Assembly (NCBI GenBank): GCA_021018995.1
Contig: CM037587.1
Span: 60,362,104-60,426,103 of the forward strand
Direction of reading: 5' to 3'
Source: Chloranthus sessilifolius
Lineage: Eukaryota > Streptophyta > Magnoliopsida > Chloranthales > Chloranthaceae
Length of the DNA: 64,000 nt
Part shown: piece by piece, positions 3,785 through 60,705 of the stretch
Layout of the letters: every line of letters begins with the position of its first letter
Numbering within the stretch: the first letter of the stretch is position 1
Program-made: the position numbers and the translations under genes
The notes under the pieces: generated by a model
Databases searched by the model: none
What the model was told of the DNA's origin: nothing
Seen by the model: the letters and a program-made list of their open reading frames with translations, nothing else

Positions 3785-3940
3785 GGATGCCTTGAACCTC
3801 GTTAGAGATGACCGAGTTTTTATCAACAATGATAAACATAAGTCACCTTTGGACTTTAAACTAAGGTAACACTTTATATAAGTGTAAGCCGAAAAGATCC
3901 TCCCTTAGGATCAAGTCACTTGAAACTCATACTTGACTTA
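3785..3940. repeat. Ancestral duplicated block, copy A
   Basis: This block (Cys/Leu-free, non-coding; key words GTTAGAGATGACC, TTGGACTTTAAACTA, GATCCTCCCTTAGGATC) is repeated at 17555-17689. The second copy continues at 20550-20610 after the solo LTR that interrupts it. Both copies are followed by AT-rich tandem repeats. It shows that the surrounding host sequence was already a large tandem repeat before the retrotransposons inserted. Confidence 0.65.
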
Positions 3941-3949
3941 TGAATATGA

Positions 3950-4352
3950 TAGAATATTAAAATATATAATAGATAGTGCATGATTAGACATAATAGAATA
4001 CTGAAATATATGACAGACAGTGACGTGATCGGATATGATACAATACTTAAATGTATGATAGATAGTGATATGATCAGACATGATAAAATACTAAAATGTA
4101 TGATAGGCAGTGACATGATCGGACATGATAGAATATTGAAATATATGATAGATAGTGAAATGATTAGACATGATAGAATACTGAAATGTATGATAGACAG
4201 TGGCATGATTAGATATGATAAAATTCTGAAATGTATTATAGACAGTGACATGATTAGATATGATAGAATACTGGAATGTAAGATAGTTAGTGACATGATA
4301 GGACATAATAGAATATTGAAATATATGATAAATGGTGACATGATTGGACATG
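3950..4352. repeat. 45-bp tandem repeat array (about 9 units)
   Basis: The word AGTGACATGATTAGACATGA and its variants recur at about 3975, 4019, 4064, 4109, 4154, 4199, 4244, 4289 and 4334, a 45-base period. Because 45 is a multiple of three and stops are absent, spurious open frames appear on both strands; they are not genes. The Tekay element is inserted in this array: the repeat phase breaks at 4357 and resumes at 17444 (ATACTGAATG...). Confidence 0.85.
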
Positions 4353-4357
4353 CTAGA
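4353..4357. repeat. Target site duplication CTAGA (left)
   Basis: CTAGA lies directly before the left LTR and again directly after the right LTR at 17444-17448. A perfect 5-bp duplication is what gypsy integrase leaves, so the element boundaries are firm. Confidence 0.9.
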
Positions 4358-5819
4358 TGTGACAGCCTGGATTTTAGCACCCCGAAACCCGTGCCATCAG
4401 CATGATCATCTTGACCATGCCCCCTGGCTAAGCACGGAACACTGGTATATCAAGCAATATAAATAAACTGAAAATGATAACAATAATTGCAAAAATAATT
4501 CACTATTTAAATGCTGATCAAAAGACGATTCTACCTTCATGCCCCTGCATGAATGGAGAACCGATCCGAACCATCGATGATTGCCAATCATCACAAATGG
4601 TTCACCCCAAAAGAATAATCCCAACATTTAATTACATTATTTAACGAAAACTAGGCTTGACATACCAAGCCGCACCAATTACGCTCATAAAAACTCTCAA
4701 AGATGCACAACGGAGTCCTCTAGAAGAAGTCCTTAGGAGGTGGCTCGAACTCGTCACCAAGCGCAAGGTCCGACCCACCAGGGTCAACATCCCCTGAAGC
4801 CTCAGCAGCTGCTAATAGTGGACCTGCGACATATAGTCTAATGGGTGAGCTACATCCTAGCTCAATAGGGAACAAACATAGTGAACATATAGATTAAAAC
4901 CTCACATATATTCCATGATATTCTAAGCATGATGTAACTATGCAGATATTGATAAAACAGTTGAAAAGCTAGCAATTTATGATCACATTTTTCTGATAGT
5001 TTACATATGTCTTTTAATTACTCATGAATGATACTGACTAGGCCTAAAGCAAAACTTAAGCTTTCAACTTAAGTAATCCCCGAGCAATATAGCATCGAGC
5101 CCCGATGAGATACCCTTCATCGTCATCTATATAGACAGTTTTAAACGTATTCCCTGGGAATACAATTAGTACCCAAGCCCCTTTCCCCTGGGGATCGATA
5201 GTAGGGTATCAAACATATCACAACATCCCTGGGATGTCCTTACTGTGTACGGATACGCCTCCGCACTGGCCTACGGTTTCGCCAACAGATTTTATCCCCA
5301 CATTGATGGGGTATCCTATCAAACCTCAAATAATAAAAATATCAGGTACTTTACATATAGTTATTCACCGTGTAAGTGTGGTATCTTATATCAGTTATGC
5401 CCTATCAGACATTATTCAATCTTAGATACATCCCTGGGATGTATCTATTCACCTGCATCACACCTGATGCTCTTATTACTTCACTTCCTCATCCCCTGGG
5501 GATGGCTCATTATTAGATGCTCTTATTGATGTCACTCACACACACTTTTCACAAAACTTTAAGCAATAAAATAGTTTTCAATTTGATTCTATATCACTAC
5601 ATACATGCTCTTGCAAATTAAAGTACATGTTCAAGGTGTTCCCTACCTCAAGTCTCTGATAATCACGCATCAAGGTCCCACGTGGCTCCTTATGCCCACG
5701 TTCACACGTACCACCTATGGTACAACATAACACATGCAATACATCAATAGAAATGTAACAAAGAAGGTCCAAGACCCTCTGAGAATCTCGAAGTCAAACT
5801 AAAAGTCAACCAAAACTAA

Positions 5820-6310
5820 CTCAGTCGATTAATCGAACTCCAAGGTCGATTAATCGAATCTGATTCGATTAATCGATTCCCAAAATCGATTAATCAAAAT
5901 TCAAAATCGATTAATCGGCTCCCAAAATCGATTAATCGAGGTCCCCATTCGATTAATTGAATCCCACATCGATTAATCGAAATTCTCTACTCTATCAATT
6001 CGATTCTCAGTTCGAGTAATCGAATTCCCAAAATCGATTAATCAATCCCAAATCGATTAATCAAAATTCGAAATCAATTAATCGAAATCCCATTTCGACT
6101 AGTCGATTTCCCCCGGTCATTTTCCTCCAGCCATTGGAGTTCACTGGAGGTTCTCAGTCGATTAATCGACACCAAAATTGATTAATCGAAATTCAAAGTC
6201 GATTAATCGAAACTCAGTTCGATTAATCGAATTCGGGTTCTTTGACTTTTCAACTTCTTGGCGAAAATCGATTAATCGAATCTCAATTTCGATTAATCGA
6301 TTTGGCCAGA
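5820..6310. repeat. Palindrome island: ~19 copies of TCGATTAATCGA
   Basis: About nineteen exact or near-exact copies of the perfect 12-bp palindrome TCGATTAATCGA sit in 490 bp. Centre-to-centre spacing is mostly 19-25 bp, about two helical turns. Spacers are short and A/T/C-rich. One longer spacer (6100-6155) carries a second dyad, CACTGG...CAGT. Variants with one changed half-site occur (e.g. CGATTAATTGA). Confidence 0.9.
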
Positions 6311-6674
6311 TTCAGCTCCCTTTTGGACCGTTCTTCCAAATATTTTCCTACTCTTTTTCCTTCATTTTTCTAAGCACTTAATCTATCATTTTAAACATTC
6401 TTGACTGAATTTAAACCTCTATAACCTATGCATTTAATTTACAAAATTTTACCTTCAATCAATCTCAAATTGATTAGATCAAGGGGTTGGAAAGGCTAGG
6501 GTTCCAGCTTTGGCTTGAACGGATCCTTCGTGTCGAATCGGCCTTTTAAATGCTTGAATCCCCTTCCAACCAACCACAATAACTCCTCGCTCAACACTCT
6601 TCTTTACTCCTCTCTCTCTCTCTCTCTTCTTAACTCTCTTTCACTACTCTACATTGATTTTAGGGTTATTGAAC

Positions 6675-6688
6675 CCTTATATACCCCT
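6675..6688 (-). promoter_or_regulatory. TATA box of the left LTR
   Basis: Minus-strand GGGGTATATAAGGG about 205 bases from the LTR start. The same box is kept in the right LTR at 17226-17239, where it would drive the genomic RNA. Confidence 0.7.
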
Positions 6689-6891
6689 TCTCTATGTGTT
6701 GAGCACACACCCAAGATAGGTGTATGTGGCTCCAGATCTCATGTCACATTCCACACACTCACTCTGTTTTCTCATCACATTCGTTCATCACACCCCGAGT
6801 TGGTTTCTGAACTCTTACTCGGTCAAACCTATGACCACTCGGGCACGGATCTGGAGGTCACTGCTTAACGTAAAATTTTTGAGATATTACA

Positions 6892-6903
6892 TCCTCCCTA
6901 CCT
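6892..6903 (-). promoter_or_regulatory. Polypurine tract
   Basis: Minus-strand AGGTAGGGAGGA directly abuts the 3' LTR start. This is where plus-strand DNA synthesis begins in LTR elements. Confidence 0.75.
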
Positions 6904-7266
6904 TGGGAATTTTTGTCCCCGAAAATAACCCAAGGGCGTCGGTCTGGTCCCCCCCCCCCCCACACTCTTGGGTGAGGTGGACTAGTTGATTAACACAACA
7001 TAGCGCAGACACACACATAGCATAAAAATATAATTGCACTAGAAAATTTACAAATCATTTTATTAATTAACAGAAAATTTACAAAATATTTACATCAATG
7101 TAACCCACAGTACAACCAGAATTTTGCCATGCAACGAAAATACAATGCAAAGTATGGCAGTCCAAGGCTCATGTCGTCCCCTCGCCAGACTGGTCGAGTG
7201 GTGGAGCAGTCGCCCGTCTGAAATGTCGTGAGCTATGGGGGTGGTTGAAAGTGGTGGGCGGTGTGG

Positions 7267-8808
7267 TCATTGTGGTATCTTGGCTCTCCGGGGTGGATGG
7301 CTGGTCGTAGTCGACGGTGGTGGCTGTGGCGTCTCGGTCGGCGGAAGTGGTGCAGAAGTGGAAGTACTAGCGTCGGTGGCACGCGGGCGGAATGCGGTAC
7401 CGGTGTGGAAGGCAGTATGTCCGGCGGTCCACGCCGCCTCCTCAGCTAACCGTCGCTGGTAATCATGTGGGTAGATATGCCTCATGGTGTGGTACATGAG
7501 GAAATCCATCCGGCGGTTCATGCGTGCGTTGTTGGCCTCCATACGTGCCAATACGTCCTCGATAGTAGGGCCGGAAAGAGCTGCGGGTCGGCGACGGAAT
7601 GAAGTCGACGTCACCAAGGTAGATCGAGGTGGTGGTGTAGCTGCTGTGGTGGGAGGTGGGATAATAGGCTGGCTCGCAGCTGGTGGAATAACAGGTGGAG
7701 CCTCCTCCACTGGTGGTGCTCCATCGGCGGGTGGTGCTCCGTCAGCGGGTAGGTCCAGCTGTGGTGGTGGGGGTGGTGGTGGTGATACAGCTGCGTCCTC
7801 AGCTGCGCTCGCTACTGGTAAGACCTTCTTCAGAAGGTTGTAACTACGGTTCCACAAGGAGTGTGAGAACCGTTTGATCTTGTCGGTCGCCCGCACCTCG
7901 TGGGGCGATATCATGTACGCCGGAGCGTCAGAATAGCTCTCCAATATGCTCGAGATGAGCCGAGCATAGGGCATCTTTTCTTTGGGCCTTAGGTTGCCCT
8001 TCATTAATTTACCCTTCATGTACCTCATCCCCTCAAGGATGATGATGGTGGCATCGAACCAACGACCCTTGTAGGCCGCGTATAGTGCTTGTTGAACCAA
8101 CTCTACCCGTTCGGTATCGTGTCGCATCGGGTAGAGGTTGCACTTGATGATGGAGTCGAGCATCCACATATACGGGGGTAAGTCTACCCTCCGAATTGAG
8201 GTGCCCGAACCCCTCTTCCCCTTGGTCATGTCGCGGATGATCTCCTCGACATCCACCTCCACTGGGAACGGTGCGAATAGGGTGGTCTCAGGTACAAAGT
8301 CCAAATAGCACTCAAGTGCTTCATGGACGTGGCGACGTGTAATGGTGTAGTCTCGACCCTCTATCTTGGTCAAGACCACGTCGTCAGTAGGGCCATCGGT
8401 AAGGCCCTGGTAAAACAGTCGAACCAACCGAGGGTAGTAGGACCCACGGGTCGGTTTCAAAAGATTGCTGAGTCCGGCATTTTCAAGGTACTTACGAGCG
8501 CAATTGGTCTCGCCTTGCACATTAGGGTTTGTGAATAGGGTTGGGTAGATAATGTAATCGATCCCAATGGTTTTAGCCGCCCACCACTCGTTGGGTTGAA
8601 CCACATTAGTGGGTGGTGGTGGCATAGGTGTGGATTCACGTGAAGGCTCACACGAAGATGCGCCCGTCGACCCGGGCGTGGTGTCCAATGCCGATGGCGA
8701 TGGGGTCCTCACGGGTGATGGGGTCGGTGGTGGCGGTGCGGCGTTCTTTTGCCAGACCGGCAGTTTGGTGGTTGCCTTCTTTGAAGACAATCGGGTTTTC
8801 GGCGGCAT
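7267..8808 (-). CDS. Extra ORF downstream of pol; resembles plant transposon-protein domain
   Basis: An intact 513-aa frame in the same orientation as pol, placed between the chromodomain and the 3' LTR. The N-terminus (1-80) is basic then Pro/Ser-rich (MPPKTRLSSKK). Residues ~75-325 form a folded-looking region with words such as RLVRLFYQGL, RRHVHEALE and DLPPYMWMLDSI, which recall the 'putative plant transposon protein' domain found in many plant retroelements. Residues ~340-400 are Pro-rich with an ADGAPP repeat; ~415-465 is helical (MEANNARMNRRMDFLMYHTMRH); the tail is Ser/Thr/Pro-rich. No catalytic motif is visible. While pol is full of stops this frame is intact, so it may be younger or under longer constraint. 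A TATA box lies about 230 bases upstream. The function is unknown; the domain match is from memory and moderate. Confidence 0.65.
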   Translation of the reverse strand: MPPKTRLSSKKATTKLPVWQKNAAPPPPTPSPVRTPSPSALDTTPGSTGASSCEPSRESTPMPPPPTNVVQPNEWWAAKTIGIDYIIYPTLFTNPNVQGETNCARKYLENAGLSNLLKPTRGSYYPRLVRLFYQGLTDGPTDDVVLTKIEGRDYTITRRHVHEALECYLDFVPETTLFAPFPVEVDVEEIIRDMTKGKRGSGTSIRRVDLPPYMWMLDSIIKCNLYPMRHDTERVELVQQALYAAYKGRWFDATIIILEGMRYMKGKLMKGNLRPKEKMPYARLISSILESYSDAPAYMISPHEVRATDKIKRFSHSLWNRSYNLLKKVLPVASAAEDAAVSPPPPPPPQLDLPADGAPPADGAPPVEEAPPVIPPAASQPIIPPPTTAATPPPRSTLVTSTSFRRRPAALSGPTIEDVLARMEANNARMNRRMDFLMYHTMRHIYPHDYQRRLAEEAAWTAGHTAFHTGTAFRPRATDASTSTSAPLPPTETPQPPPSTTTSHPPRRAKIPQ

Positions 8809-9033
8809 TATGGTAAAAAATTGAAGAAAAGCTAAGGTTTCGCTAACTCAAATTGAAGAAAAGTTCAAATTTAGGGTTTACCGTAGGTTTAGGATGCGAT
8901 GTTACTCGAATCCGATCCAAAATCGATCGGAATGTGCAAACCCTAGATGGTCACGGTCGGTTGGAGAAGGAAGAAGAATGGCGCCCAAATGCAAAAAGCC
9001 CAAATGATTCGAATGGGGAACAAAATCCCCAAA

Positions 9034-9047
9034 TTTATATATATAGG
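9034..9047 (-). promoter_or_regulatory. Internal TATA box upstream of the extra ORF
   Basis: Minus-strand CCTATATATATAAA, 226 bases before the ATG at 8808. It lies between the internal palindrome island and the ORF, so the ORF may be transcribed on its own. This is inferred from position only. Confidence 0.5.
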
Positions 9048-9049
9048 CT

Positions 9050-9785
9050 CAGATTCGATTAATCGATTTCTCAAAGTCGATTAATCGAGTTGCAAAACTA
9101 GCTAAGGCGCTCGAAATCGATTAATCGATTTCCAAAATCGATTAGTCGAAATACAAATTCGATTAATCGACATCCATTTTGATTAATCAAAATCGTAGCC
9201 GTTTAAAATTTCAAAATTTTGAGCTCACTGGTGTTAGCCAGTCTATTAATCGAAATCCATTTCGATTAATCAAAATTTTAAAATCGATTAATCGAATTTT
9301 ACTTCAATTAGTCGAAATCGCACGGTCCTTCAATTTTTTTTCCCAATTCCTTAAATGACTCGATTAGTCGAATTTTCTAGTTCGATTAATCGAATTACCA
9401 ATCGATTAATCGAAATCGTCATCGATTAATCGAAATTTCATATAACTCAAATTTTCATTGAAGATCCCTTAAGTTATTCGATTAATCGAATCTCAAGATC
9501 GATTAATTGAAATCCAAATTCGATTAATCGAAACTTAGATCGATTAGTCGAATTCACTATTACTTTAAATCTTTCAATTATCAGGCCCACTGGCCTCTGC
9601 CAGTCAATTAATCGAATCCACTATCGATTAATCGAAATTTTCAAAATTTTCATCTATCAATATTTTTCCTCACTGGCTGATGCCAGTCGATTAGTCGAAC
9701 AAAACTCGATTAATCGAATCCTCAAATCGATTAATCGATTTGAAAATCGATTAATCGGTTTTACCCGACTTCTCGAATTCTGTTG
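9050..9785. repeat. Internal palindrome island: ~24 copies of TCGATTAATCGA
   Basis: The same 12-bp palindrome as in both LTRs recurs about 24 times over 735 bp between the end of pol and the internal TATA box. Three copies of a second dyad, CACTGG-N(6-7)-CCAGTC, lie at about 9228, 9589 and 9669. Flanks of the words (AAATTTC, AAATCC) also recur. Nothing here codes. Confidence 0.9.
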
Positions 9786-9911: not shown

Positions 9912-10337
9912 TCAGCTCGTTGTAAACAACTCAGGGTACTGTTCTTTTACATCTGCCTCTCGTTCCCACGTGGCCTCTTCGGTCGAATGATTTTTCCATC
10001 GAACAAGCACTAAGGGAATCACTTTAGTACGTAGTACTTGTTCCTTTCGATCCAAGATCTCCGCCGGTTCTTTTATCATGCTCATGTCCTCATGCATCTC
10101 CAAAGGTTAACTTCCTAACACATGAGATGGATCATTCACGTACTTCCTGAGCATCGATACGTGGAAAACATTATCTACCCGATCGAATAATGGTGGTAAT
10201 CCAATGCGGTAAGCAACTTCACCTACACGACCCAAAATTTCAAATGGTCCAAGATAACGGGGACTTAACTTCCCTCTCTTGCCAAACCTCATCACGCCTT
10301 TCATAGGCGACACTTTCACAAACACGTGTTCACCCAC
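9912..10337 (-). pseudogene. Integrase C-terminus and chromodomain
   Basis: Two in-frame pieces separated by a stop near 10104. The upper piece has the GPY/F-type integrase tail (KLSPRYLGPFEI ... VDNVFHVSMLRKY). The lower piece is the chromodomain (LVRWKNHSTEEATWERE), which targets chromovirus integration to chromatin. The stop after VLGS splits them. Upstream, further in-frame stops (near 10378 and 10515) separate this part from the integrase core. It belongs to the same polyprotein as the neighbouring RT and integrase frames. Confidence 0.88.
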
Positions 10338-10514
10338 TTTATAGTCGACACTAGTCCGCTTGATGTCAGCGTAACTTTTCTATCTGCTCTGAGCTGCTTT
10401 GAGTTTGGCCCTTATCATACGAACATAGGTGGCATTGTCTTCAAGTAACTCGGGTCCTAACACAAATTTCTCCCCGGTTTCTTCCCAATTGATGGGCGAT
10501 TTACATCGCCGTCC

Positions 10515-12062
10515 TTATAAAGCTTCATATGGTGCCATCCCAATGCTCGTCTGAAAACTGTTGTTATACGCAAACTCAATCAACGGTAGGTGCTGATCCC
10601 ATGACCCTTGAAGTTCTACCATACACGCTCTCAGCATGTCTTCAATCACCTGGTTCACTCGCTCTGTTTGCCCATCAGTTTGAGGATGGAAAGCTGAACT
10701 AAAATTTAGTCGCGTTCCCATTCCTTCTTGAAATTTCTTCCAAAACTTGGATGTATAAAGTGAATCACGATCTGAAACTATGCTGCTCGGAATCCCGTGT
10801 AATCTTACGATCTCCTTCATATATAAGTCTGCCAGTCTTCCTGCCTTATACATCATATTGTAAGGTAAAAAGTGCGCTGATTTGGTCAATCGATCCACGA
10901 CTACCCAAATGGCATTATGTCTCTTGGCAGTACGCGGTAATCCAATAATGAAATCCATAGAGATCGATTCCCACTTCCATTCTGGTATTGGTAAAGGCTG
11001 CAATAGTCCAGCAGGATGCCTATGGTCAATCTTCACCTGCTGACAGGTCAAACACCGTGACACGTATTCGGCCACGTCTTGCTTCAACCCTCTCCACCAA
11101 TAGTTCTTTTTCAAGTCTTGGTACATTTTGGTGCTACAAGGGTGGATAGCATAATTTGACTTGTGGGCTTCATCAAGAATCGTTCGTCTTAGATCGGCAT
11201 TGTCCGGAATGCAGAGATGGCCCTTGAACAATAAAGAACCATCTTCTTTCAATGAGAAGTCCGGCCTGATGCCTTCAATCACATCTTGATGAATCTTTAT
11301 TAACGTCGGATCTTTCATTTGTAGATCACGGATATCCTCAAATATTACCAGTCTCACTGATATGTTAGCCAAAAAGGATCCTGTAGCTTTCGACTCAATG
11401 TTTACATCATAGAGTGCCAGGTTTTCCAATAATTTCCACCGATGCATACCCAAAATCAAACAAGCTAACTGAGCTAAACTCTTCCGACTCAACGCATCGG
11501 CCACTACGTTAGCCTTGCCTGGATGGTACTGTATAGAACAATCATAGTCCTTGAGGAACTCCATCCATCTGCGTTGTCTCATGTTGAGCTCCTTCTGTGT
11601 AAACAGGTATTTGAGGCTCTTATGATCAGTGAAAATTTCAAACGTCTCACCATACAAGTAATGTCTCCAAATCTTCAGCGTAAAAATGACTGCTGCTAAC
11701 TCCAAGTCATGAGTCGGATAATTTTTCTCGTGTTCTTTCAGCTGTCTTGATCCATAAGCTATCACATTCTTGTGTTGGTTGAGCACGCAACCCAACTCAT
11801 TGTATGACGCATCGCTGTACACTGCGTATCCTCCACTGCCTGAAGGAATTGCTAGCACTGGAGCTGAAGTGAGTCTCGTCTTGAGTTCTTGAAAACTCTT
11901 CTCGCATGCGAGAAGAGCTCTTGAAAACTCTTCTCGGATGCCTTTCGTGTCAGCTTCGTGAGAGGTCTCGATATCTTTGAAAACCCCTCGACGAAACGTC
12001 GATAGTAGCCTGCTAACCCAAGAAAACTTTGGACATCGGTCACTGTCTTTGGTTGCTCCCAT
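10515..12062 (-). pseudogene. RNase H and integrase core of pol
   Basis: The genuine homology starts near residue 50 of this frame. RNase [25 protein letters not shown] and ADALSRKS. Integrase: an HHCC zinc region ending in CLTCQQVK, then the catalytic triad in [20 protein letters not shown] and [15 protein letters not shown] (D, D, E all present). The N-terminal 50 residues are out of the true frame: a 32-bp imperfect duplication at 11880-11943 shifts the frame relative to the RT piece. The frame ends with a stop in the usual YEALYGRRC region. Confidence 0.9.
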
Positions 12063-12700
12063 TTAACCACTGCTTCTATCTTTGCTGGATCTACATTGAC
12101 ACCGTGCTTTGAGACAACATGTCCCAAAAAGCTAACCTCTTCCAACCAAAACTCACATTTGCTTAGTTTGGCATACAATTGGTGTTCACGTAGTGTCTGT
12201 AGAGCAATCCTCAAATGTTCTTCATGTTCCATCTTGGATTTGGAGTATATCAAAATATCATCAACGAATACTACGACGCAGGAGTCCAGGTGTGGTTTAA
12301 ACACCCAATTCATCAGATCCATAAATGATGTCGGAGCATTCGTCAACCCAAACGGCATCACAAGGAATTCATAGTGTCCATACCGTATCCTGAAAGCTGT
12401 CTTCTGGATCTCCTCTGCCTTGACTCTCAACTGATGGTATCCAGATCTCAGGTCGATCTTGAAAAAATACCTCACTCCTTGCAGTTGATCAAACAGATCG
12501 TCAATTCTAGGCAAAGGGTAGCAGTTCTTCACAATGAGTTTGTTTAGTTGTCGATAATCAATGCATAGACGCATTGACCCATCTTTCTTCTTAACAAACA
12601 AGACCGATGCTCCCCACGGAGGCACGCTCGGTCTGACAAACCCCTTGTCCATGAGCTCTTGTAGTTGCTCTTTCAACTCCTTCAACTCAGCAAGAGCCAT
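11852..12700 (-). pseudogene. Reverse transcriptase of pol
   Basis: Gypsy-type RT. Visible motifs are [66 protein letters not shown] and the catalytic [10 protein letters not shown] (the YVDD box as FVDD). It ends in [15 protein letters not shown] and the tether to RNase H. It is separated from the protease by one in-frame nonsense codon at about 12725, and from RNase H by the frameshift near 11900. The conserved residues are intact. Confidence 0.93.
11880..11943 (-). repeat. 32-bp tandem duplication that shifts the pol frame
   Basis: The minus-strand word CGAGAAGAGTTTTCAAGA occurs twice, 32 bases apart. Thirty-two is not a multiple of three, so the RT frame and the RNase H frame no longer join. 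Confidence 0.75.
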
Positions 12701-12724
12701 TCTATATGGTGCTTTTGAAACAGG

Positions 12725-13335
12725 CTACGTTCCCGGTGCTAAGTCAATGGCGAATTCTACTTCTCTCTCTAGAGGTAATCTAGGCAACTCTTCTGGAAAG
12801 ACGTCGGCGAAGTCTCGCACAACTGCTATCTCAGAGATGACGTTCTTTTCTTCCTTGTCCTCCTTTAAGAAAGCCAAGTATCCACTGCAACCCTTCATGA
12901 TCATTCGCTCGGCCCTTATTGCTGAGATCAGTGGCATATGTGATGACCTCACTCCTTGAAATCGAAATGATCTTCTTATGTTGGGTCTGAAGATGACAAC
13001 CTTGTTCTTGCAATCGACCGTGACACAATGCTGCGCCAACCAGTCCATGCCAAGGATCACATCAAACCCTTGCATGTCCAGCAGTATCAACTTTACCTCC
13101 AATTCATGCACATCCAGGTCTCGAATTGCTACGATGACGGATTTGCAAGCTAGCTCTGTGTCCACTAACTCTCCAGTCGGAATAGACACAGATAAGACAA
13201 AATCCAACGCCTCTAGAATAATCTTCATCCTCTTGGCAAATCCTGGAGTGACGAATGAGTGGGTAGACCCTGGGTCTATCAACACTCTAGCATCATATCC
13301 AACGAAGCATCCTTTCTCATATACAGTTAGCGTAC
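12725..13335 (-). pseudogene. Aspartic protease of the Tekay pol
   Basis: Retropepsin domain with the active-site word VLIDPGSTHSFV (DPG, common in this clade) and the second-half words VILGMDWLAQH and VTVDCKNK. The region after it (ELPRLPLEREVEFAIDLAPGT) is the usual linker before RT. The natural reading begins at 13335, just after a predicted splice acceptor; the Met-started frame at 13375 reads through intron sequence. A TAG ends the frame before RT. Confidence 0.9.
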
Positions 13336-13503
13336 CTATAGTATACATACATACATACAATAATTTACATATCAATTTACACCCCTAATTCACATATAAA
13401 TTTAGTGTTTGGAAAATAATCTACACTATTTCCTAATGAATGCACCTTCTCTATCTAAAATTTTCAGGGAATTGACAACTCTTTATTTAAATGAAAATCT
13501 CAC
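13336..13503 (-). other. Probable 168-bp spliceosomal intron between gag and protease
   Basis: On the minus strand the gag frame runs to ...CATCCAAG and meets GTGAGATTTTC; the protease frame resumes after ...TACTATAG with GTACGCTAAC. Joining the two gives an uninterrupted frame through the join (Q-G-T-L-T-V). The intervening 168 bases are AT-rich, contain several in-frame stops and a TATG microsatellite, and encode nothing. Splice sites are canonical GT-AG. Confidence 0.7.
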
Positions 13504-14695
13504 CTTGGATGACGTCATGCATGTTCCCTGCTTCCTGAGCAGTGACTGCATAGGCTCTTCCATGAACGACCAACTTCCGTGCTTGAATGGGTCTTGGCGC
13601 TGAAACTGAAGCCGTCTTCCCTTTATCAACCTCGGGGCAATCCTTGATCAGGTGGCCCACCTTGCCAAATCGGAAACAACCCCTGGATCCCACTCTGCAA
13701 TCCACGGTCCTATCAGGCTTGCCACACTTGGCACAAGTCTCTCGAGGTGCATAAGAAACTGTACGAGAACCCTGTGTGACGGTAGCGCCAGTAGACATGG
13801 CAGGGCTCTCATAGCGTAAAGGTCTCCCCGACGCAAGTAGCGGAAATCTCTGTTGGTTGCTCTGTTGCGCCGGTCTTTCGAAACTCCCTTGGAACTGTGG
13901 TCTCTGATTTTAGGCCACGAACCTCGGCTTTTTATTCACCGGTTCGTAGTTCTCCATTCTTCCTTGATCTGTGTTTCCCCTTTGTTGTTCTCTCTGCCTA
14001 TATCTGTTATTATTCTCCTCTTCCACAACTAGTGCCTTGCTCATGACCTCTTCATAGGTCCTCAACTGAAATGGAGCTACTCCTCCCCTAACCTCAGGCT
14101 TCATGCCTTGCTGAAACCTCTTTGCCTTCATCACGTCGATGGCGACATAATCAGGAGCAAAATGGGCGAGTCGTAGAAACTCCACTCCATACTCTCTCAC
14201 GCTCATCCTCCCTTGCACTAATTGTAGAAACTGAATCTCCATTTGGTTTCTTACCACCTCTGGAAAATATTGTTTGTTGAACTCCTCAACAAACTCCTCC
14301 CAAGTCCACGGCAACTCTGGGGTCTCTTGAGCCCTATTTCGTATCACGGACTTCCACCAAGGCCCAGCCTCCCCATCTAGCATGTAGGCTGCCCATCTAA
14401 CACTCTCATCCTCTATGCATGTCAGCACGCTGAACACCTTCTCCATTTCCATTAACCAATTCTCTGTTGCCATCGTGTCTGCCTGCCCAGAAAACGTAGG
14501 AGGTCTCATCCTCCGGAACTCAGTAAAAGACAAAGGCACAGGCAATGTAGGTCCTACAGGTGGTGTAGGTGGCTGCTGCTCTCTTGCTGCATGAGCTGCA
14601 AAGGATGCGGCTTGTTGTGCCATGGCAGCTGCCATGGTCTCCATGGTGTGCATCATCCTTTGGCGCACCTCTCTATCTTCCTGTCTTTCTCTCAC
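13504..14695 (-). pseudogene. gag polyprotein (capsid and nucleocapsid)
   Basis: The frame is open from about 14872 to 13913, with the first Met at 14695; it continues after one TAA to the intron donor at 13504. The N-terminus is rich in Arg/Asp/Gln repeats (DRDRQDRDQ). The capsid domain shows FRRMRPPTFSG, ENWLMEMEKVF, AAYMLDGEAGPWW, FVEEFNKQYFP and SVREYGVEFLRLA, typical of plant gypsy gag. The nucleocapsid has two Cys clusters; in CFRFGKVGHLIKDC the second Cys of the CCHC knuckle is Phe, so this knuckle is damaged. Confidence 0.9.
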
Positions 14696-14970
14696 CCTCT
14701 CCTGTTCTCGTTGATCTCGATCCTGACGATCTCGATCCTCATCCTCTTGTTGTCTACTACTGCTGCCCCCTGGGGCCTCACTACCTCCTAAGGGTACTCG
14801 ATTGGTAGGAGAGATGTAACCATCTCCACTACGGAAACTTCTCTGCTGGCCTCCTCTCGGTCGGCCTCTTCCCTAGATGACATTGACGGCTGCATTTGAA
14901 ACTAAAGTTTCGTTAGCAGAAGTCCCTATGTTCTGACAAAAAGAATGATTGTCAGAATTGCTAAAAGAAA

Positions 14971-14986: not shown

Positions 14987-17443
14987 TGGGACAACCCGAA
15001 TTTCGATACCTCGAACCCGTGCCATCAGCATGATCATCTTGACCATGCCCCCTGGTTAAGCACGGAACACTGGTATATCAAGCAATAGAAATAAACTGAA
15101 AATGATAACAATAATTGCAAAAATAATTCACTATTTAAATGCTGATCAAAAGACGGTTCTACCTTCATGCCCCTGCATGAATGGAGAACCGATCTGAACC
15201 ATCGATGATTGCCAATCATCACAAATGGTTCGCCCCAAAAAAATAATCCCAACAATTAATTACATTGTTTAACGAAAACTAGGCTTAACAGACCAAGCCA
15301 CACCAATTAAGCTCACAAAAACTCTCAAAGATGCACAATGGAGTCCTCTAGAAGAAGTACTCAGGAGGTGGCTCGAACTCGTCACCAGGCGCAAGGTCCG
15401 ACCCACCAGGGTCAACGTCCCCTGAAGCCTCAGCAGCTGCTAATAGTGGACCTGCGACATATAGTCTAAGGGGTGAGCTACATCCTAGCTCAATAGGGAA
15501 CAAACATAGTGAACATATAGATTAAAACCTCACATATATTCCATGATATTCTAAGCATGATGTAACTATGCAGATATTGAGAAAACAGTTGAAAAGCTAG
15601 CAATTTATGATCACATTTTTCTGGTAGTTTACACATGTCTTTTAATTACTCATGAATGATACTGACTAGGCCTAAAGCAAAACTTAACCTTTCAACTTAA
15701 GTAATCCCCGAGCAATATAGCATCGAGCCCCGATGAGATACCCTTCATCGTCATCTATATAGACAGTTTTAAACATATTCCCTGGGAATACAAACATATC
15801 ACAACATCCCTGGGATGTCCTTTATGTCGGATCGCCTTCGGCCTCTACGATTTCGCCGCCATATCGGGTCACCGGATATCCCCTGCGTGTGGGTATCCCG
15901 CCACGTCGGTGGGGTATCCTATCAAACCTCAAATAACAAAAATATCAGGTGCTTTACATATAATTATTCACCGTGTAAGTATGGTATCTTATATCAGTTA
16001 AGCCCTATCAGACATTATTCAATCTTAGATACATCCCTGGGATGTATCTATTCACTTGCATCACACCTGATGCTCTTATTACTTCACTTCCTCATCTCCT
16101 GGGGATGGCTCATTATTAGATGCTCTTATTGATGTCACTCACACACACTTTTCACAAAACTTTAAGCAATAAAATAGTTTTCAATTTGATTCTATATCAC
16201 TACATACATGCTCTTGCAAATTAAAATATATGTTCAAGGTGTTCCCTACCTCAAGTCTCTGATAATCACGCATCAAGGTCCCACGTGGCTCCTTGTGCCC
16301 AAGTTTACACGTACCACCTATGGTACAATATAACACATGAAATACATCAATAGAGATGTAACAAAGAAGGTCCAAGACCCTCCAAGAATCTCGAAGTCAA
16401 ACTAAAAGTCAACTAAAACGAAGCCAGTCGATTAATCGAACTCCAAGGTCGATTAATCGAATCTGATTCGATTAATCGATTCCCAAAATCGAATAATCGA
16501 GGTCCCCATTCGATTAATCAAATCCCACATCGATTAATTGAAATTCTCTACTCTATCAATTCGATTCTCAATTCGAGTAATCGAATTTCCAAAATCGATT
16601 AATCGATCCCAAATCGATTAATCGAAATTCGAAATCGATTAATCGAAATCCCATTTCGACTAGTCGATTTCCCCCGGTCATTTTCCTGCAGCCACTGGAG
16701 TTCACTGGAGGTTCTCAGTCGATTAATCGACACCAAAATCGATTAATCGAAATTCAAAGTCAATTAATCGAAACTCAGTTTGATTAATCAAATTCGGGTT
16801 CTTTGACTTTTCAACTTCTTGGCAAAAATCGATTAATCGAATCTCAATTTCGATTAATCGATTTGGCTGATTCAAATTTCTTTGTTTCTTCCAAATCTTT
16901 TCCTACTCTTTTTCCTTCATTTTTTTAAGCACTTAATCTATCATTTTAAATATTCTTGACCAAATTTAAACCTCTATAACCTATGCATTTAATTTACAAA
17001 TTTTACCTTCAATCAATCTCAAATTGATTAGGTCAAGGGGTTGGAAAGGCTAGGGTTCCAGCTTTGGCTTGAACGGATCCTTCGTGTCGAATCGACCTTT
17101 TAAATGCTTGAATCCCCTTCCAACCACCCACAATAACTCCTTGCTCAACACTCTTATTTACTCCTCTCTCTCTCTCTCTTCTTAACTCTCTTTTACTACT
17201 CTACATTGATTTTAGGGTTATTGCACCCTTATATACCCCTTCTCTATGTGTTGAGCACACACCCAAGATAGGTGTATGTGGCTCCAGATCTCATGTCACA
17301 TTCCACACACTCACTCTGTTTTCTCATCACATTCGTTCATCACACCCCGAGTTGGTTTCTGAACTCTTACTCGGTCAAACCTATAACCAGTCGGGCACAG
17401 ATCTGGAGGTCACTGTTTAACGCAAAATTTTCAGGATATTACA
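14987..17443 (-). repeat. 5' LTR of the Tekay element (2457 bp)
   Basis: It matches 4358-6891 over nearly its whole length. Its TATA box is at 17226-17239 (minus) and the CT microsatellite near 17165. Two clear differences from the other LTR: block 15820-15913 is unrelated to the corresponding block 5236-5310, and the palindrome island has lost about 50 bp. A segment present at 5166-5220 in the left LTR is also missing here. Confidence 0.9.
16425..16870. repeat. Palindrome island of the 5' LTR: ~17 copies
   Basis: Same TCGATTAATCGA array as in the left LTR, with about seventeen copies. Two motif copies are missing compared with the left LTR through a deletion between two CCCAAAATCGA words. 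The CACTGG dyad is kept near 16698. Confidence 0.9.
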
Positions 17444-17448
17444 CTAGA
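17444..17448. repeat. Target site duplication CTAGA (right)
   Basis: Perfect partner of the CTAGA at 4353-4357. Confidence 0.9.
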
Positions 17449-17684: not shown

Positions 17685-18429
17685 CATACTGTGACAGCCC
17701 GGATTTTCCCAACCTAAACTTCCTGATATTTTTTTTTTTTATCCTATACCCAATGGGAAAACCCAAACCGCCAGATCGTAAACCACAATCTGATACAGAA
17801 TGCTTGGTACATCCATAAATAAACAGAAATCAAAGCAATTATTACATATAGCATAATTAAAACCACCATATCAAAAATCCAACAAGAACAAAACTAAATA
17901 AACACCAGTGATGACCAACCATCACCTAACAATGGTGTACACTAGTACGAATGTACCAAAACTTAACTCACCAAATCCACAAAGCACAATTCTACGATCC
18001 CTGAACAAAGTACAAATTCTTGTTCGAAAGCTCCCTTCTTTTAGTATGTAATTTGGGCCCTCCCAAACCTACACATGTGACGTATAGTCGGGGTGAGCTA
18101 ACAACTAAGCTCAGTAGAGGATAAAACAACATAAATTTACATTTAACATTCGAAAACATAGCTTCAACCAAGAGTCAAAACCATCATTTAATTCTGCTTC
18201 CAAAAACTTAATCATTTCCCTTCTTTTCAAACACATTATTTTTCAAAGCATTCATCAATTTCTTCTATTTCAAAACTCAACCTTAAACATTTAACTTTAC
18301 CATGATATTCCATCCAAAAGCACACATAACAAAAAGAATCTTAAAACAATTAGACTTATCCAGGAATATCCAAGATTTCACACACATTCCAAATAACGTC
18401 GAATTTGCAAATACAAACTCAAATAGCAC

Positions 18430-18850
18430 AAGGGTGTCAAAGGGTGTTCAATGTTTCCAAAGTGTCCAAGGGATGCAACGATGTCCAATGGTGTCCAAAG
18501 GTGTCCAATGATTCCAAAGTGTCTAAGGGATGCAATGATGTCCAAGGGTGTCCAAAGGTATCCAATGATTCCAAAGTGTCCAAGGGATGCAATGATGTCC
18601 AAGGGTGTCCAAAGTGTGTTCAATATTTCCAAAGTGTCCAAGGGATGCAATGATGTCCAAAGGTGTCTAATGATTCCAAAGTGTCCAAGGGATGCAATGA
18701 TGTCCAAAGGTGTCCAATGATTCTAAGGTGTCCAAGGGATGCAATGATGTCCAAGGGATGCAATGATATTCCAAGGGATGCATATGCAGCGTATGTATGA
18801 ATGCGTGTACGGATAGGCCGCCGTACTGGCCCAAGGGATGCAGTCAAAGA
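18430..18850. repeat. GTCCAAGGGATGCAATGAT-type minisatellite
   Basis: Words GTCCAAGGG, ATGCAATGAT and CCAATGATTCCAAA alternate many times in an irregular higher order of roughly 60 bases. It gives false open frames in three frames; none is a gene. A GTGTACGGATAGGCC segment at its right end matches the variable block of the left Tekay LTR. Confidence 0.8.
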
Positions 18851-19534
18851 ATCCAAAGGATTCATAATGCAAATGAAAATGTCAAAAGTCCAAGCGTCGT
18901 TGAGTAAATCATAGTTCCAAGGGTGTCAAAATGATTTACGAGTGTCACTAGCGATCTCAAGATCTTACTTTCAAAACACGAGTCGAGTTCAACAAAATCA
19001 AAGGTTATCTAGAATCGAACATTATCACATGCATAATCACAATTTCACGAGTTCATATTCCAAATCATAAGACTCCAATTCTAACATATCCAACTCCGAT
19101 CAACTCATCATATTCATGCAAACACATCTAATACTATGAATCAAGTCAAATATATAAATTTAGGTCGAGTTTCCCCTACCTTTATCTTGAGGTTGCGTGA
19201 AGCCAAGCAAAGTCCTTTCAATGGCCTTCCACCTCAATCTATATCACAAGCACACAATGATGCATCAAAGATCAACTCTACTCACTAATAACTTATATAC
19301 ATTTAAGTATTTTCTCAAAACCAAGGTTGAAACGGGCAAATTCATGTTATTATAGAATTTGACGCAACATTCCTCCTAAAGTTTGACCTTTAAAACTTTA
19401 GATTCATGAGTTTGTCAAAACACAAAAGTTGTAGATATCGTCATCCTCTTTCTAACGCCATAACAATTGTGTCAATTGGAGTTCGAGGTAAAACATTACG
19501 GCCAAAATACTGAAGTAGTATCAGCGAGCCCAGT

Positions 19535-19805
19535 CAAAATTGTTCGAACGATTTAAAATCGATCGAACGGTTTCTAATTTTGTTCGAACGATTTTCAAAA
19601 TTGTTCGAATGGTTTCTAATTTTGTTCGAATGGTTTTCAAAATCGATCGAACGAATTTCAAACAGACCAGAACCTTCAGATTTCATGCTTGACGAAATCG
19701 TTCGATCGATTTCTAATTTCGATCGAACGGTTTCGTCAGATTTCACCCTCAACTAATTTCTTTCGAACGGTTTTCAAAACCGATCGAACGGTTTCGTCAG
19801 ATTTC
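19535..19805. repeat. Dyad island of AAACCGATCGAACGGTTT type
   Basis: About ten copies of a dyad word centred on TTCGAA or ATCGAT with flanking AACG/CGTT arms (e.g. AAATCGATCGAACGGTTT, ATTGTTCGAACGATT). It lies about 740-1010 bases from the minus-strand start of the LTR, downstream of the TATA box, the same place as the TCGATTAATCGA island of the Tekay LTRs. Confidence 0.8.
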
Positions 19806-20320
19806 ACCCAAAATTAGATTCAAGCATCTCTAACTCATTTTTCTTTAAATCTTAACCCATTTTCTTCAAATCTCTCACTCATAATCTAACTAAGGATTAA
19901 TCTACATACAAATCACAACTTAAATAAAAAATTTTACCTTTAATCCAACGATTTTCTCCCCGATCGGTTCGTCTTCTTCCTAGCAAGCAAATGAGTTTCC
20001 AAACCCCTTTTGATCTTTCCAAGCCCCACGATTTTCACAATTTCGACGCGATCATTAGGTGATCATCCACACACGCTTCGTACAAACCTCTTATATGCAT
20101 CGATTCTTCGATCCGAGCTTTCACACAACAAGCTAGATCTTATTAGCTTGGAGTTCCGGATTTCACACAGATTAGAACACCTTCTTTAATCCTTCGCACA
20201 CAACGCATCCAAAGCCCATCTCTTCCTCTTGCTCTTTCTCTTCTCTCCTCTCCCTCTCTATCTCTAGAAACCTAAAGCCTCAACCTTTTAACCAAATGGC
20301 TTCTAAAAGAAGCCCCTCCC

Positions 20321-20336
20321 TCTCTTATACTTAAAA
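20321..20336 (-). promoter_or_regulatory. TATA box of the solo LTR
   Basis: Minus-strand CTTTTAAGTATAAGAG about 210 bases inside the LTR, the same distance as in the intact Tekay LTRs. Confidence 0.5.
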
Positions 20337-20549
20337 GCCCGGTTCACGTGTAAAATGCATACACGCCACAATAGGTGTATAAGACCCTATAAAATGATCT
20401 AACACCATACAGGTGTGCACTTTTCACACCAAAATTAATCAAATCTAAATCATCAAGTTGACTTTCACCCGCTCAAAATTAGTGACCTGACGGGCACATA
20501 TCTCGAGGCACACTATTCAAAGTCCAAATCTTTGGAATGTTACACATAC

Positions 20550-21409
20550 CATTTGAAACTCAGATTTGGCTTATGCTTGGATATAATAGAACATGAGTTT
20601 GAACTGATAGAACACTGAATGTAGGATACAGATACTGGTTTTTGAATGTATAGTTTGAATGAAGTGCTTGAACATGATAGTTACATGATTGAACATGATA
20701 GTAATGTAATTGATCATGAAATGGAATGAAATGCTTGATATGAAAATAGAAAGAATAGTGACATGCTCGAACATGATAGTGAAATGCAAAAGATGATAGA
20801 ATACTGACATGCTTGGAATTGAATTGATAGCAATCCGAAATGAAATGACAATAAAATGAAATGATATGATAGTAATATGATAGAATGCTGAAATGCTTGA
20901 AAAGAAATGATTAATAGTAACATGTTTGAACATAAGTTGGAATCTTGTCAAAATAAGTACATGACAGATACTCTTAAAAGTGTATAGAACATGAAGTCCT
21001 GAATACAGTACATGAAAGATAGAAAGGTAAATAAAGACAGAAAAATATAAATACAGTACATGAAAGATAGAAATATAAATAAATACAGAAACATGTGAAT
21101 ATAGAAATATGAATATTGAAATATATGATACAGAACCTCCAAAGTGAGGATATATGATACGGAACCTCATAAATGAGGATATATGATACATAACCTCAAA
21201 ATTGACGATATATGACACATAATACGGAACCTCAGAAATGAGGATACAAAATACAGAACTTCATAAATTAGGGTATAGAATACAAAATTTGCATACAGAA
21301 TATGAAAGATAGAATTGGAAAGACATGTATTGAATAATAAATTTGAATACAGAAAGATGAATAATAAAACGAAAACTAAAAATTTGAAAGTGAAAAGACG
21401 ATACTATTA
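20550..21409. repeat. AT-rich host repeat with 35-bp sub-array
   Basis: 20550-20610 continues the duplicated block interrupted by the solo LTR. 20650-20940 is degenerate ATGATAGTGACATGCTTGAA repeat. 21125-21290 holds about five ~35-bp units (GGAACCTCANAAATGAGGAT...ATATGATAC), whose CCTCA/TGAGG arms form small hairpins. No gene. Confidence 0.7.
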
Positions 21410-38406: not shown

Positions 38407-39819
38407 TGTGACAGCCCGAATTTCGGCATCCCGAAATCCGTGCCATCTGCACGACCTTCAAGGCCGTGCCTTAAATTCATATCATAACTCGCCGATATAT
38501 ACAGCCAAACTGTAATTGAAGCACATGCGAATACTCTAAATAAAAATAAAAAGTTATAGGATAGTTGATCCTACAAGGCTGTCCCTGTTCCATGCCAATT
38601 CATGGACATAAGGACACACCCAAAAGTTTAATGACAATTATTCTTCTTAAATAGTTTACCAAGAGACAGTATTTAGACCTTCCAAATAATGAGGTTCGAC
38701 ATATCACGTCATACATAGTACTCTCTCAACTCACTCTTAGGGTATGCAGCGGGTTTCCTAGAAGAATTCCTCAGGAGGAGTTGTCTCTTCGGTGGAGTAC
38801 GAACTCCGATGCCCTTGGATTAACTTCACACAAGTCCTGCCAGCGCTAGTCCATGACCCGTGACGTATAGTCTAAGGGTGAGCTACATCCTAGTCTGTAG
38901 GGAAAACAAAAGAGCATATAGATCATCCTTCACACATATGTCAGTAACTTAATAAAACATAAATTTTCAAGAAAACATTTATGTACAACAATTTGGATAA
39001 CAGAAATAACTCAAAGGTTCCAATCACTACTTATCATAGCTTTGTTTAATCTCTTTATAAGCTTGTTCGTGAACTTGGCCTAATCACTTAAATCTTAACT
39101 TAATTAATCCTCGAGCAATATAGCATCGAGCCCCGATGGAATACCCGCCATCGTCGTCTAACTAGACAGTTGTTATGTGTATTCCCTGGGAATACTGCCC
39201 AAGCCCCTTCCTCATAGGCGTGGGTCTATTCTCAATCTACATCCACAGGATGTTATAATTGATTGGATTGGCGTCGGTCACGGATATCCTGCCGAAGTCA
39301 TTCGTGGGTATCCATGCGTCGGTGGGGTATTCTAATCAACCTTAAATAACAAAAGTATCAATGTGCTTTACATGTAGTTATTCACCGTGATTGTGTTAAA
39401 TATATTACATTAGGCCTTATCACGTTATCTTTGTTTCTCTGTTTGTTTTCTTACTCATCCCTGGGATGCCCCATGCTTCTATTTCACCTTTCTTTGATTT
39501 AATCACATTATCTTTCGTCCCCTGGGGACCTCAGGATTTTCCACATTGGAACACGCACACACCCTTATCATGAGGATTTATAAAATATACACTATTTAAA
39601 TGGACTATACTACACATATGAATTCACAGAATAATGCACATGTTCGAGAGAATTCCCTACCTCGACGAATCTCAAAGCACGCTTGTCCTTAGAGGGTTAA
39701 AATGCACCAACCTACATTTAAAAAGAATTTTACTTTAGGATGCTCTAAGGTCTTTGGGGTGTAAGACACCCGAGTTTCTTATATTAGGAAACCAATATTT
39801 GAGTGATCACGGACCTGCA

Positions 39820-40100
39820 TTCAGGCGGTCATTAGCCCTCGCTCGGCGGTCACTTGACCTCGCTCGGCGGTCACTTGACCTCGCCGGCGGTCTCTTGATC
39901 TCGCTCGGCGGTCAAATCAGAGATCGCTCGGCGGTTAAATCGAGCTTGAATTTTTACGTGGACCCTCGCTCGGCGAGCTCCCCTTTAGTTTTAGGGACCG
40001 CTCGGCGAGCCCGAGCCACATTTTTCTATATTCATCCTCGCTCGGCGAGCCTCTTTAGATCGCTCGGCGAGGAACAATGATTTTGTCCTCGATCGGATCG
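39820..40100. repeat. Dyad island of CTCGCTCGGCGAG type
   Basis: About eleven words with core CGCTCGGCG, half extended to the dyad CTCGCTCGGCGAG and half to CTCGCTCGGCGGTCA, spaced about 20-25 bp. It lies 460-740 bases from the minus-strand LTR start, downstream of the TATA box. A false plus-strand frame across the array (repeats of ARRSLDL) is a by-product of the period. Confidence 0.85.
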
Positions 40101-40408
40101 AGAATATGCTTCCACTCATCATTTACCCTTTATCTTATACAAGGAAACATTTAGCCAACCTCTTTCCTACTATTTAAAACCTTCCTAGGCATCTATCATG
40201 TGAAACCTTCGATTTATGATTTGAATATCTACTCGGTTATCCGGCCTCCCTGGTTCGTCCTCCCGTCGTTTCCTCTGATCTCCTTTACCGACCTAAGTCT
40301 TAACGAACCCTAGTTCTCTACCAGACTCTTTTCTTCTTTCTCTCTATATTCTCCTTCTCTCTATTTAGGTTAGAATAGATTTACGTAAGGGCTCCTCTCT
40401 CTCCTTTT

Positions 40409-40424
40409 CACTTTTATATCTAAA
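40409..40424 (-). promoter_or_regulatory. TATA box of the solo LTR
   Basis: Minus-strand TTTAGATATAAAAGTG, about 140 bases inside the LTR. Confidence 0.55.
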
Positions 40425-41510
40425 ATTTTTGGGATATACTAGTGTGTTTCCCACGTACACACTTAAAGTATTTGGGTCGTTTTGGTCTCCTTGTGAAACA
40501 CATATACCTATGTGTGTATGCGTGCCGTGCACAAATTGTGAAAAAATCTGGGTTGTGACACTTAGCCTCAGCATTGACAGGCTTGCCATCTCTACGGGAA
40601 TGTGTCTTTATAAACACATCTATTCGGCTAGGCGTAGTCTGTGTCTCACTCTTCATTCGCTCTGTCAAAAAAAGAGTCAATCACTTTGGTGCACACTTAA
40701 ATAATATAATAAACGACATGCAACTAATTAAAAGTGAATACATTAAATAAAATGCATACCTCCTCATAGCGAACTCTAGCAAAGCTTTTTGAGCCAGATG
40801 TATGAGGTAGAATTTGGCGTTTCCGAATATCCTTATTTCTTCTGCTTATTTGCTATATTACAAAGTTGCCCGATAATGAGATTGTAATACTTATTTTTTC
40901 TAGTTAAAATATTACATAATTAAAATTTACCTTTCCATCTTCTGATCGTCAATAGTGAACGAGGGTTTCCCATTGCTTCTGATGTACATTAGGAGGGCAA
41001 GGTGACATTCGAATACCATCATTTGCATGTTTGTTGTAGTACTTGGTCTTCAAACGAGACTTATGGTCTCTCCATTTTTTTCCGACTGACTTCATTATAT
41101 AGCCTCGTAGGCTCTTATCAATTTCAAATCTGGTCTGCATAGAGATAGGGTAAAACTTATATTATAATTATTTTACTCCCTTATGTGTTGAAAAAGTAAA
41201 TATTAAATTACACATCTTACCAAAATTGTGTCTCATACATGTGCTTTCGACTTTTTATCCACCGTACGCCAAGACTTTTTATCAATACACAATACGCATC
41301 CATCCCTTGCTGATGTACCACAAAAATTTGCTAATAAAGTAGCATTTTTTGTTGGTTGACAAAAATTGATATCGATGCCAACATCTATTTTAACACCGTC
41401 TTCCAAACCATTCAGATACTTGCATATAGTTAGACCTCGTCTTGTCCGCTCTCCCAAATTATCCATGGGCAAGTTGTCAAATAAGGAAGCACTCTACTTT
41501 ATCAGCTTCA

Positions 41511-60108: not shown

Positions 60109-60705
60109 TCAAAGGTCAAGTTTGGAGGTGAAAAAATGATATTTTTCACTGCTTAACAATACATTCAACGCCGATCCATTATCAATTAATACCAAGGAGG
60201 TTATCATGGTTTCGAATTCTACAGTGATATTGAGGAATTTGGAATGACTATTCCCCTCCTTTGGTAAATCGGCGTCTAAAAACGATATGGCATTGGGAGT
60301 CATTACTTGTCCAATTATCTGGCCGACTTCATCTGGGCTCACCTGAAGAGATACATGCACATTTTTTAATGCCCCCATCAGAGCTTGAAAGTAAAGTGGG
60401 GACGTCATCAATAGATCCCGGACTGTGATATGAGCCAACATTCTTCTCAATTGTGTTTCAAGTATATGTTCTCGGCTCATTTTCTCAAATCGGTTAACTG
60501 CACTTTCTTTCTTCCCCTCTGATTGGGCTTGTGCTGCTACTGGTGCTTCTGGCTGCTTAGAAAATTTTCCAGATTTGGTAACAAAGTCTACTGCTCCCTC
60601 CGTGCTATTGCCGACATTGGCATCTGTCTGTTTGTAACTAAGCGAGATGAGGATTGTAAGTTGGTCCCAAAATCTGAAACGGAGTGACTGTCGGTATTGA
60701 TGCAC
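60109..60705 (-). pseudogene. Tat-lineage protease region, truncated
   Basis: The frame has MSREHILETQLRRML, then MTPNAISFLDADLPKEGNSH and the active-site word VLIDNGSALNVL, with DNG in place of DTG/DSG as is usual in Tat elements. It breaks off shortly after, at SSEKYHFFTSKLDL, so the second half of the protease and all of RT, RNase H and integrase are missing. The N-terminal part (residues 1-60) is linker. It continues from the gag pieces to the right. Confidence 0.75.

Follow-up and report, generated by a model that had tools for sequence, protein, structure and literature searches.

The long terminal repeats (LTRs) of Sireviruses, a group of Ty1/copia retrotransposons, carry 8-32 copies of a palindromic word, and members with a 3′ ENV-like gene bear a second motif cluster just upstream of that gene; the clusters are CpG islands, the words differ between elements, and among the copia elements studied such motifs were termed Sirevirus-specific (Bousios et al. 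2010, PMC2829016; this paper and those below are cited from excerpts). The VANC/VANDAL system of Mu-like DNA transposons in Arabidopsis has motif arrays that differ between families and for which binding is documented both in vivo and in vitro (Hosaka et al. 2017, PMC5735166). In sunflower, the excerpted account of Athila elements describes a 3′ extra open reading frame (ORF) of unknown function with partial similarity to PF20167 Transposase_32 (PMC11728184), and a later paper, as excerpted, asks whether extra ORFs of retrotransposons shape methylation as VANC does (PMC12844716). Here we analyse a 64-kb stretch of Chloranthus sessilifolius CM037587.1 (the window), in which a retrotransposon (the main element, by its sequence a Ty3 chromovirus and putatively of the Tekay clade) carries dense arrays of a 12-bp word, TCGATTAATCGA, in both LTRs and upstream of an extra ORF. 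Judged by their conservation and placement, the arrays are very probably binding sites of some kind at the level of DNA.

The main element shares with Sireviruses, as far as the excerpts describe them, the high-copy palindromic LTR motif, the second cluster upstream of a 3′ extra gene and the CpG islands (CpG observed/expected of 2.5-2.8 in the arrays vs 0.62 outside the array in the main 5′ LTR). It differs from them in being a Ty3 chromovirus rather than a Ty1/copia element, and in the core of the word, which is CGG-CCG in all but one of the Sireviruses and TCG...CGA or CTCGC...GCGAG here. The LTR cluster lies upstream of the TATA box there, whereas it lies ~380 bp downstream of a TATA-like box here; the internal array ends ~10 bp upstream of another TATA-like box. 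Neither a co-variation of word and 3′ protein nor word-versus-spacer rates, both given below, are found in the excerpts of PMC2829016.

The excerpted VANC/VANDAL account likewise describes short non-coding motif arrays that differ between related families, growth by tandem repetition and a diverging element-encoded protein. In our material, too, the arrays change with the encoded protein between families (three families, with sub-variants by clade, the third family being one element). In contrast, VANDAL is a DNA transposon, and VANC bears DUF1985 and DUF287, neither of which was found in the extra ORF (Pfam up to E 1); the motif there is non-palindromic and in a single orientation, but palindromic here; and binding and demethylation are proven there, while the present work compares sequences. 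As in sunflower Athila, the 3′ extra ORF has PF20167 similarity, but the carrier here is a chromodomain element, and the excerpts of PMC11728184 mention no word arrays.

Sirevirus motif clusters with CpG islands and VANDAL proteins with co-evolving motif arrays are, separately, already known. Their combination in a Ty3 chromovirus, with measured word conservation and with word switching tied to the extra ORF, was not found in the literature searched, as represented by titles, abstracts and excerpts; at the level of titles and abstracts, only Sirevirus work was comparable for such LTR arrays, and the letters of TCGATTAATCGA were met in one unrelated paper only. Reportedly, according to PMC10760457, a study by Bousios et al. 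from 2016 deals with Sirevirus palindromes and small interfering RNA.

Conservation of the word

The main element lies on the minus strand, which makes the left LTR of the window its 3′ LTR and places the internal array upstream of the extra ORF. There are 33 exact copies of TCGATTAATCGA in the window, all inside three arrays (10, 13 and 10 in the left LTR, the internal region and the right LTR). With up to two mismatches, the arrays hold 19, 24 and 17 sites, 60 altogether, the counts given in an earlier note on this DNA; its description of the word as a perfect 12-bp palindrome holds for 33 of the 60 sites, the remainder having one or two mismatches. Outside the arrays the window has three more matches, each with two mismatches. 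When every array region was simulated with a first-order Markov model (300 runs per region), no run produced more than one exact copy. Site spacing is 19-22 bp in 32 of 41 cases (left-LTR and internal arrays), and the mean of 20.6 bp between adjacent sites bears out the spacing of nearly two helical turns noticed earlier. The sites of the internal array form mostly clusters of four. A second box, ACTGG-N6-CAGT, occurs three times in the internal array (9227, 9589 and 9672) and once per LTR (6143 and 16704), and all five matches in the window abut a word.

Within the left-LTR and internal arrays, site-to-site agreement is 0.917 at word positions vs 0.39-0.40 in the flanks, with chance at ~0.27-0.28. 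Because the sites had been chosen by their likeness to the word, uniformly decaying 21-bp arrays were simulated (300 runs each). At the flank identity, no more than 7 of 22 and 9 of 33 units, counted in the best phase, had two mismatches or fewer; at a pairwise identity of 0.6 the maxima were 18 and 23, compared with the observed 19 and 24.

In the 2.17-Gb genome, TCGATTAATCGA occurs 241,617 times exactly and the reversed word 55 times. A search with the extra ORF yielded 54,077 candidates at first look, 84 of which were scored (72-100% identical). From these 84, with the window copy excluded, 20 copies were sampled that all match from residue 1 at 72-89% protein identity, and 801 bases upstream of each were examined. 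An array precedes the extra ORF in all 20 (20-26 sites with up to two mismatches, 7-16 exact), where a control word gave no match; the absence of the word from most full-length members, which the earlier note had held to speak against a function, was thus not seen in this sample.

Internal arrays of these 20 copies were then compared with that of the window, in columns outside CpG. In the 15 closer copies the word differs at 42 of 2676 positions (1.6%) and the spacers at 688 of 5714 (12.0%); in the five more distant copies the figures are 33 of 925 (3.6%) and 578 of 1842 (31.4%). Redefining the word columns from the other copies left both comparisons the same. A word no better conserved than its spacers, an outcome set beforehand as refuting a function, therefore failed to occur in the internal array. 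The CpG columns of the word are 14-17% different in closer and more distant copies alike, as would fit a decay that followed insertion.

These rates bear on another explanation, namely that the arrays are a neutral tandem repeat (minisatellite) spread by duplication. The four-word clusters and modules of roughly 120 bp do show growth by tandem duplication, and spacer identity between modules is 0.44 at the same rank vs 0.41 at different ranks, so that module ancestry is nearly erased in the spacers. However, uniform decay cannot leave words ~8-fold better kept than spacers across copies, and the simulated arrays keep fewer units than the observed 19 and 24. A neutral repeat is thus extremely improbable, and we take it as ruled out by the copy-to-copy rates and the simulation.

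Once inserted, the word is not protected. Between the 5′ and 3′ LTRs there are differences at 11 of 204 positions in words, 5 of 230 in array spacers and 118 of 2000 elsewhere. With CpG left aside, 7 of 358 array positions differ vs 95 of 1889 in the rest of the LTR (p 0.008), this rest including a patch of poor homology.

Change of the word with the extra ORF

The extra ORFs of two further families were taken from stretches of C1 around word hits, the LTRs of these elements being presumed. The three extra-ORF families are 30-48% identical and have different CpG-rich dyad words, each the same at the presumed LTRs and before the extra ORF. In family 2 (L025), whose extra ORF matches that of the window in two pieces at 38-48% identity, sites of the CGWTCGAWCG type stand upstream of the extra ORF at 4375-4586 and in the presumed LTRs at 1372-1585 and 11492-11913 (block positions). 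In family 3 (L017, one element; extra ORF 30-43% identical to that of the window), sites of the CTCGCTCGCGCGAG type stand upstream of the extra ORF at 18369-18487 and in the flanks at 8854-9019 and 21146-21333. When each word was counted at ten places, words of another family were nearly absent: a single word-1 site precedes the extra ORF of family 2, and the 5′ side of family 3 has one word-2 site plus one site of the solo-LTR type.

Twenty of 150 listed relatives of family 2 were sampled (59-85% identical, first matched residue 1 to 2, mostly open frames). Word 2 is present upstream in 19 of them, with 4-12 sites, whereas word 1 is found at 0-1 sites and words 3 and 4 at none; pooled over the sample, 138 word-2 sites compare with 4 of a control word. 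The family-2 words are partly asymmetric. Their fully palindromic variant, CGTTCGAACG, occurs in 8 of the 9 members of one protein subclade vs 1 of 11 others in a tree of 144 residues, and is the sole variant in four members of that subclade (Fisher p 0.0009, which ignores relatedness, the subclade having been read off the tree after the counts were seen). By sequence, the word thus shifts with the protein inside family 2, differs outright between families and is the same at both ends of each element.

The main rival to the extra-ORF protein as binder is a host transcription or chromatin factor, with the extra ORF unrelated to binding and each family relying on a host factor of its own or on its own variant of a shared one. 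Any DNA-binding factor would suit the conservation of the words and their position at two presumed promoters, and the Sirevirus authors, in the excerpted account, proposed host stress factors for their motifs (PMC2829016). Against a host factor, the words change with extra-ORF divergence, down to the sub-variants of family 2, and it is at the extra ORF that the second array stands; co-inheritance would also explain both points, which are not decisive. We consider a host factor rather unlikely, though a serious contender.

Two other groups of loci are worth noting. Mixed arrays of word-1-like and word-2-like sites were seen at 5439-5509 in L018 and 6580-6811 in L019, in the neighbourhood of two weak word-1 arrays that lie far apart; they are possibly intermediates between words. 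Three contigs of metagenome-assembled genomes (L001-L003) among prokaryote genome contigs have one exact-word pair each, 7-11 bases apart, and the exact double word was found in no viral contig.

Proposed function of the arrays

A dyad word kept between unconserved spacers, a pitch of two helical turns, arrays sited at the extra ORF as well as in the LTRs, and turnover together with the extra ORF jointly suggest binding sites for a dimeric DNA-binding protein. The best explanation overall, in which our belief and doubt are about equal, is that the element family depends on this protein, which is most likely the extra-ORF product, diversified with its own word; the narrower claim that the extra-ORF protein binds the arrays has, in our judgement, an even chance of being right. 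The earlier suggestion of dimeric-protein sites has gained strong, if indirect, support from the conservation of the word against its spacers, its presence in 20 of 20 copies, the 20.6-bp pitch and the joint change of word and extra ORF in three families, but it suffers from an extra ORF without a recognised DNA-binding domain.

We propose that a dimeric protein, most simply the extra-ORF product, would bind the word of its own family, and that the two-turn spacing would let many dimers load on one face of the DNA. The sites would act from both LTRs and from beside the presumed promoter of the extra ORF, the two clusters marking two promoters by analogy with the Sirevirus motifs. Bound arrays might hold off silencing and keep the regulatory DNA open, much as VANC does in VANDAL elements, and gag-pol and the extra ORF would be expressed from the open DNA. 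Such an anti-silencing role, argued from analogy, we put forward tentatively. With similar reserve, the system may be a retrotransposon counterpart of VANC, in which the extra-ORF protein would recognise the word of its own family and lift silencing of that family only, with at least three distinct word/protein pairs in one genome. On this reading, a word from one of these mutually distinct pairs has multiplied to about 240,000 exact copies in the genome. Even without the anti-silencing reading, a strongly conserved 12-bp word in such numbers in one genome is unusual and testable.

Several observations weigh against the extra-ORF protein as binder or against the role proposed for it. First, Pfam up to E 1 gave for the extra ORF only weak matches, to PF20167 (below its cut-off) and DinB_2, with no recognised DNA-binding domain, and a sequence search of the PDB gave no relative at E≤1. 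Second, the long gaps between clusters in the main element are not in phase at 10.5 bp (3 and 6 spacings; R 0.45 and 0.43). Third, CpG decay is alike in the main LTR array (9 of 37) and the rest of the LTR (15 of 47; p 0.48), so that this copy gives no sign of lasting escape from methylation. Fourth, some relatives are without the expected words: none of the tested words is found upstream in the family-2 relative L064, and one family-1-type copy, L012/L013 (69%), has neither an exact word in ~1.65 kb upstream of the extra ORF nor an array there, its interval from reverse transcriptase to extra ORF being only ~1.2 kb, which points to a probable deletion of the internal region. Finally, co-inheritance alone would make the word and protein trees partly agree, and their agreement does not by itself identify the binder.

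It is also conceivable that the words act as RNA, in dimerisation or packaging of the genomic RNA or as hairpins, every word being able to pair with every other. Each LTR array follows its TATA-like box at a distance of about 375-385 bp, rather than preceding it, and hence falls in the presumed transcript leader; predicted folding of the main element's arrays is far above that of shuffled sequences (z -9.7 to -14.2). However, both strands fold strongly, as any array of DNA palindromes must; of 28 transitions in the words, in sense-strand reading, 15 would break the pair, against 13 that would retain it as G-U (the two LTRs not being independent); the family-2 words are not fully symmetric; and a helical pitch has no reason in RNA. 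For RNA dimerisation, the other suggestion of the earlier note, no observation speaks in particular. Since any palindrome in DNA is one in RNA too, and the arrays have strong predicted folding as RNA, we leave it a small share, and judge an RNA role improbable.

The carrier element and other arrays of the window

The pol of the main element is of the Ty3 type and closes in a chromodomain, and its two LTRs are flanked by the 5-bp duplication CTAGA (Table 1). The internal array ends ~250 bp before the ATG of the extra ORF (8808). In a general protein database the extra ORF has no relatives at E≤0.001 and gag has one unnamed match, matches so few that plants seem thinly covered there.

Table 1. 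Positions of the main element, its word arrays and the solo LTRs in the window
Feature	Position	Strand	Remarks
3′ LTR	4358..6891	-	target-site duplication CTAGA at 4353-4357
Word array, 3′ LTR	5825..6300	-	19 sites with ≤2 mismatches, 10 exact; CpG observed/expected 2.6
Extra ORF, 513 amino acids	7267..8808	-	weak match to PF20167 Transposase_32: E 2.4e-7, 31.3 bits, curated cut-off 45
TATA-like sequence	9034..9046	-	~10 bp past the last word, ~240 bp before the extra-ORF ATG; putative promoter
Internal word array, upstream of extra ORF	9055..9758	-	24 sites with ≤2 mismatches, 13 exact; CpG observed/expected 2.8
Second box ACTGG-N6-CAGT (short inverted repeat)	9227..9687	-	each directly before a word
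gag, protease, reverse transcriptase, RNase H, integrase, chromodomain	9915..14872	-	several interrupted frames
Chromodomain	9915-10106	-	Chromo E 6.6e-8, above cut-off
5′ LTR	14987..17443	-	target-site duplication CTAGA at 17444-17448
Word array, 5′ LTR	16428..16861	-	17 sites with ≤2 mismatches, 10 exact; CpG island, observed/expected 2.5
TATA-like box, 5′ LTR	17236	-	array follows ~375 bp on, in sense reading
Solo LTR, family-2 word	17690..20544	-	duplication CATAC; CGWTCGAWCG-type array at 19540-19791
Solo LTR, word like that of family 3	38407..40560	-	duplication CTTAG; CTCGCTCGGCGAG-type array at ~39838-40071

Both solo LTRs have their array in a similar mid-LTR position, with CpG-rich dyad words mostly ~21 bp apart. 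CpG observed/expected in the LTR arrays (main, 17690-20544 and 38407-40560) is 2.5, 3.0 and 1.5, vs 0.62, 0.66 and 0.78 for the parts of these LTRs outside the array. Three stretches of the solo LTR at 38407-40560 match the main LTR at 79-86%; they all lie beyond the arrays on the downstream side, and alignment detected no likeness inside the arrays. The solo LTR at 17690-20544 aligns with the main LTR in two places only, the first 85 columns and a patch of 26 bases. In each of these LTRs, the main pair as well as the two solo copies, a single splice-donor-like AGGTAGGG follows the array, and beyond it stands a single GCTCACC box, a layout that suggests a leader intron.

A fourth array, at 59156-59773, has another dyad word, of the CTCGACAGGT type, with 17 sites at up to two mismatches. 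Its spacings of 31, 32, 42, 53, 73, 74 and ~21 are near multiples of 10.5 bp. The phase at 10.5 bp has R 0.96 for ten spacings outside 17-25 bp (scan p ≤ 0.001, at up to two mismatches), but is not significant with three mismatches allowed (R 0.62, scan p 0.25). Minus-strand frames near this array, at 60109-60705 and 61234-61557, resemble pieces of a Ty3 gag and protease.

The main element was inserted in a 45-bp tandem repeat (3935-4384, ~9 copies), which is apparently part of an older nested element. Elsewhere in the window, a pair of LTRs 6.1 kb apart (21410-22751 and 27541-28867) shows a CpG peak and one TACGATCGATCGTA palindrome per copy.

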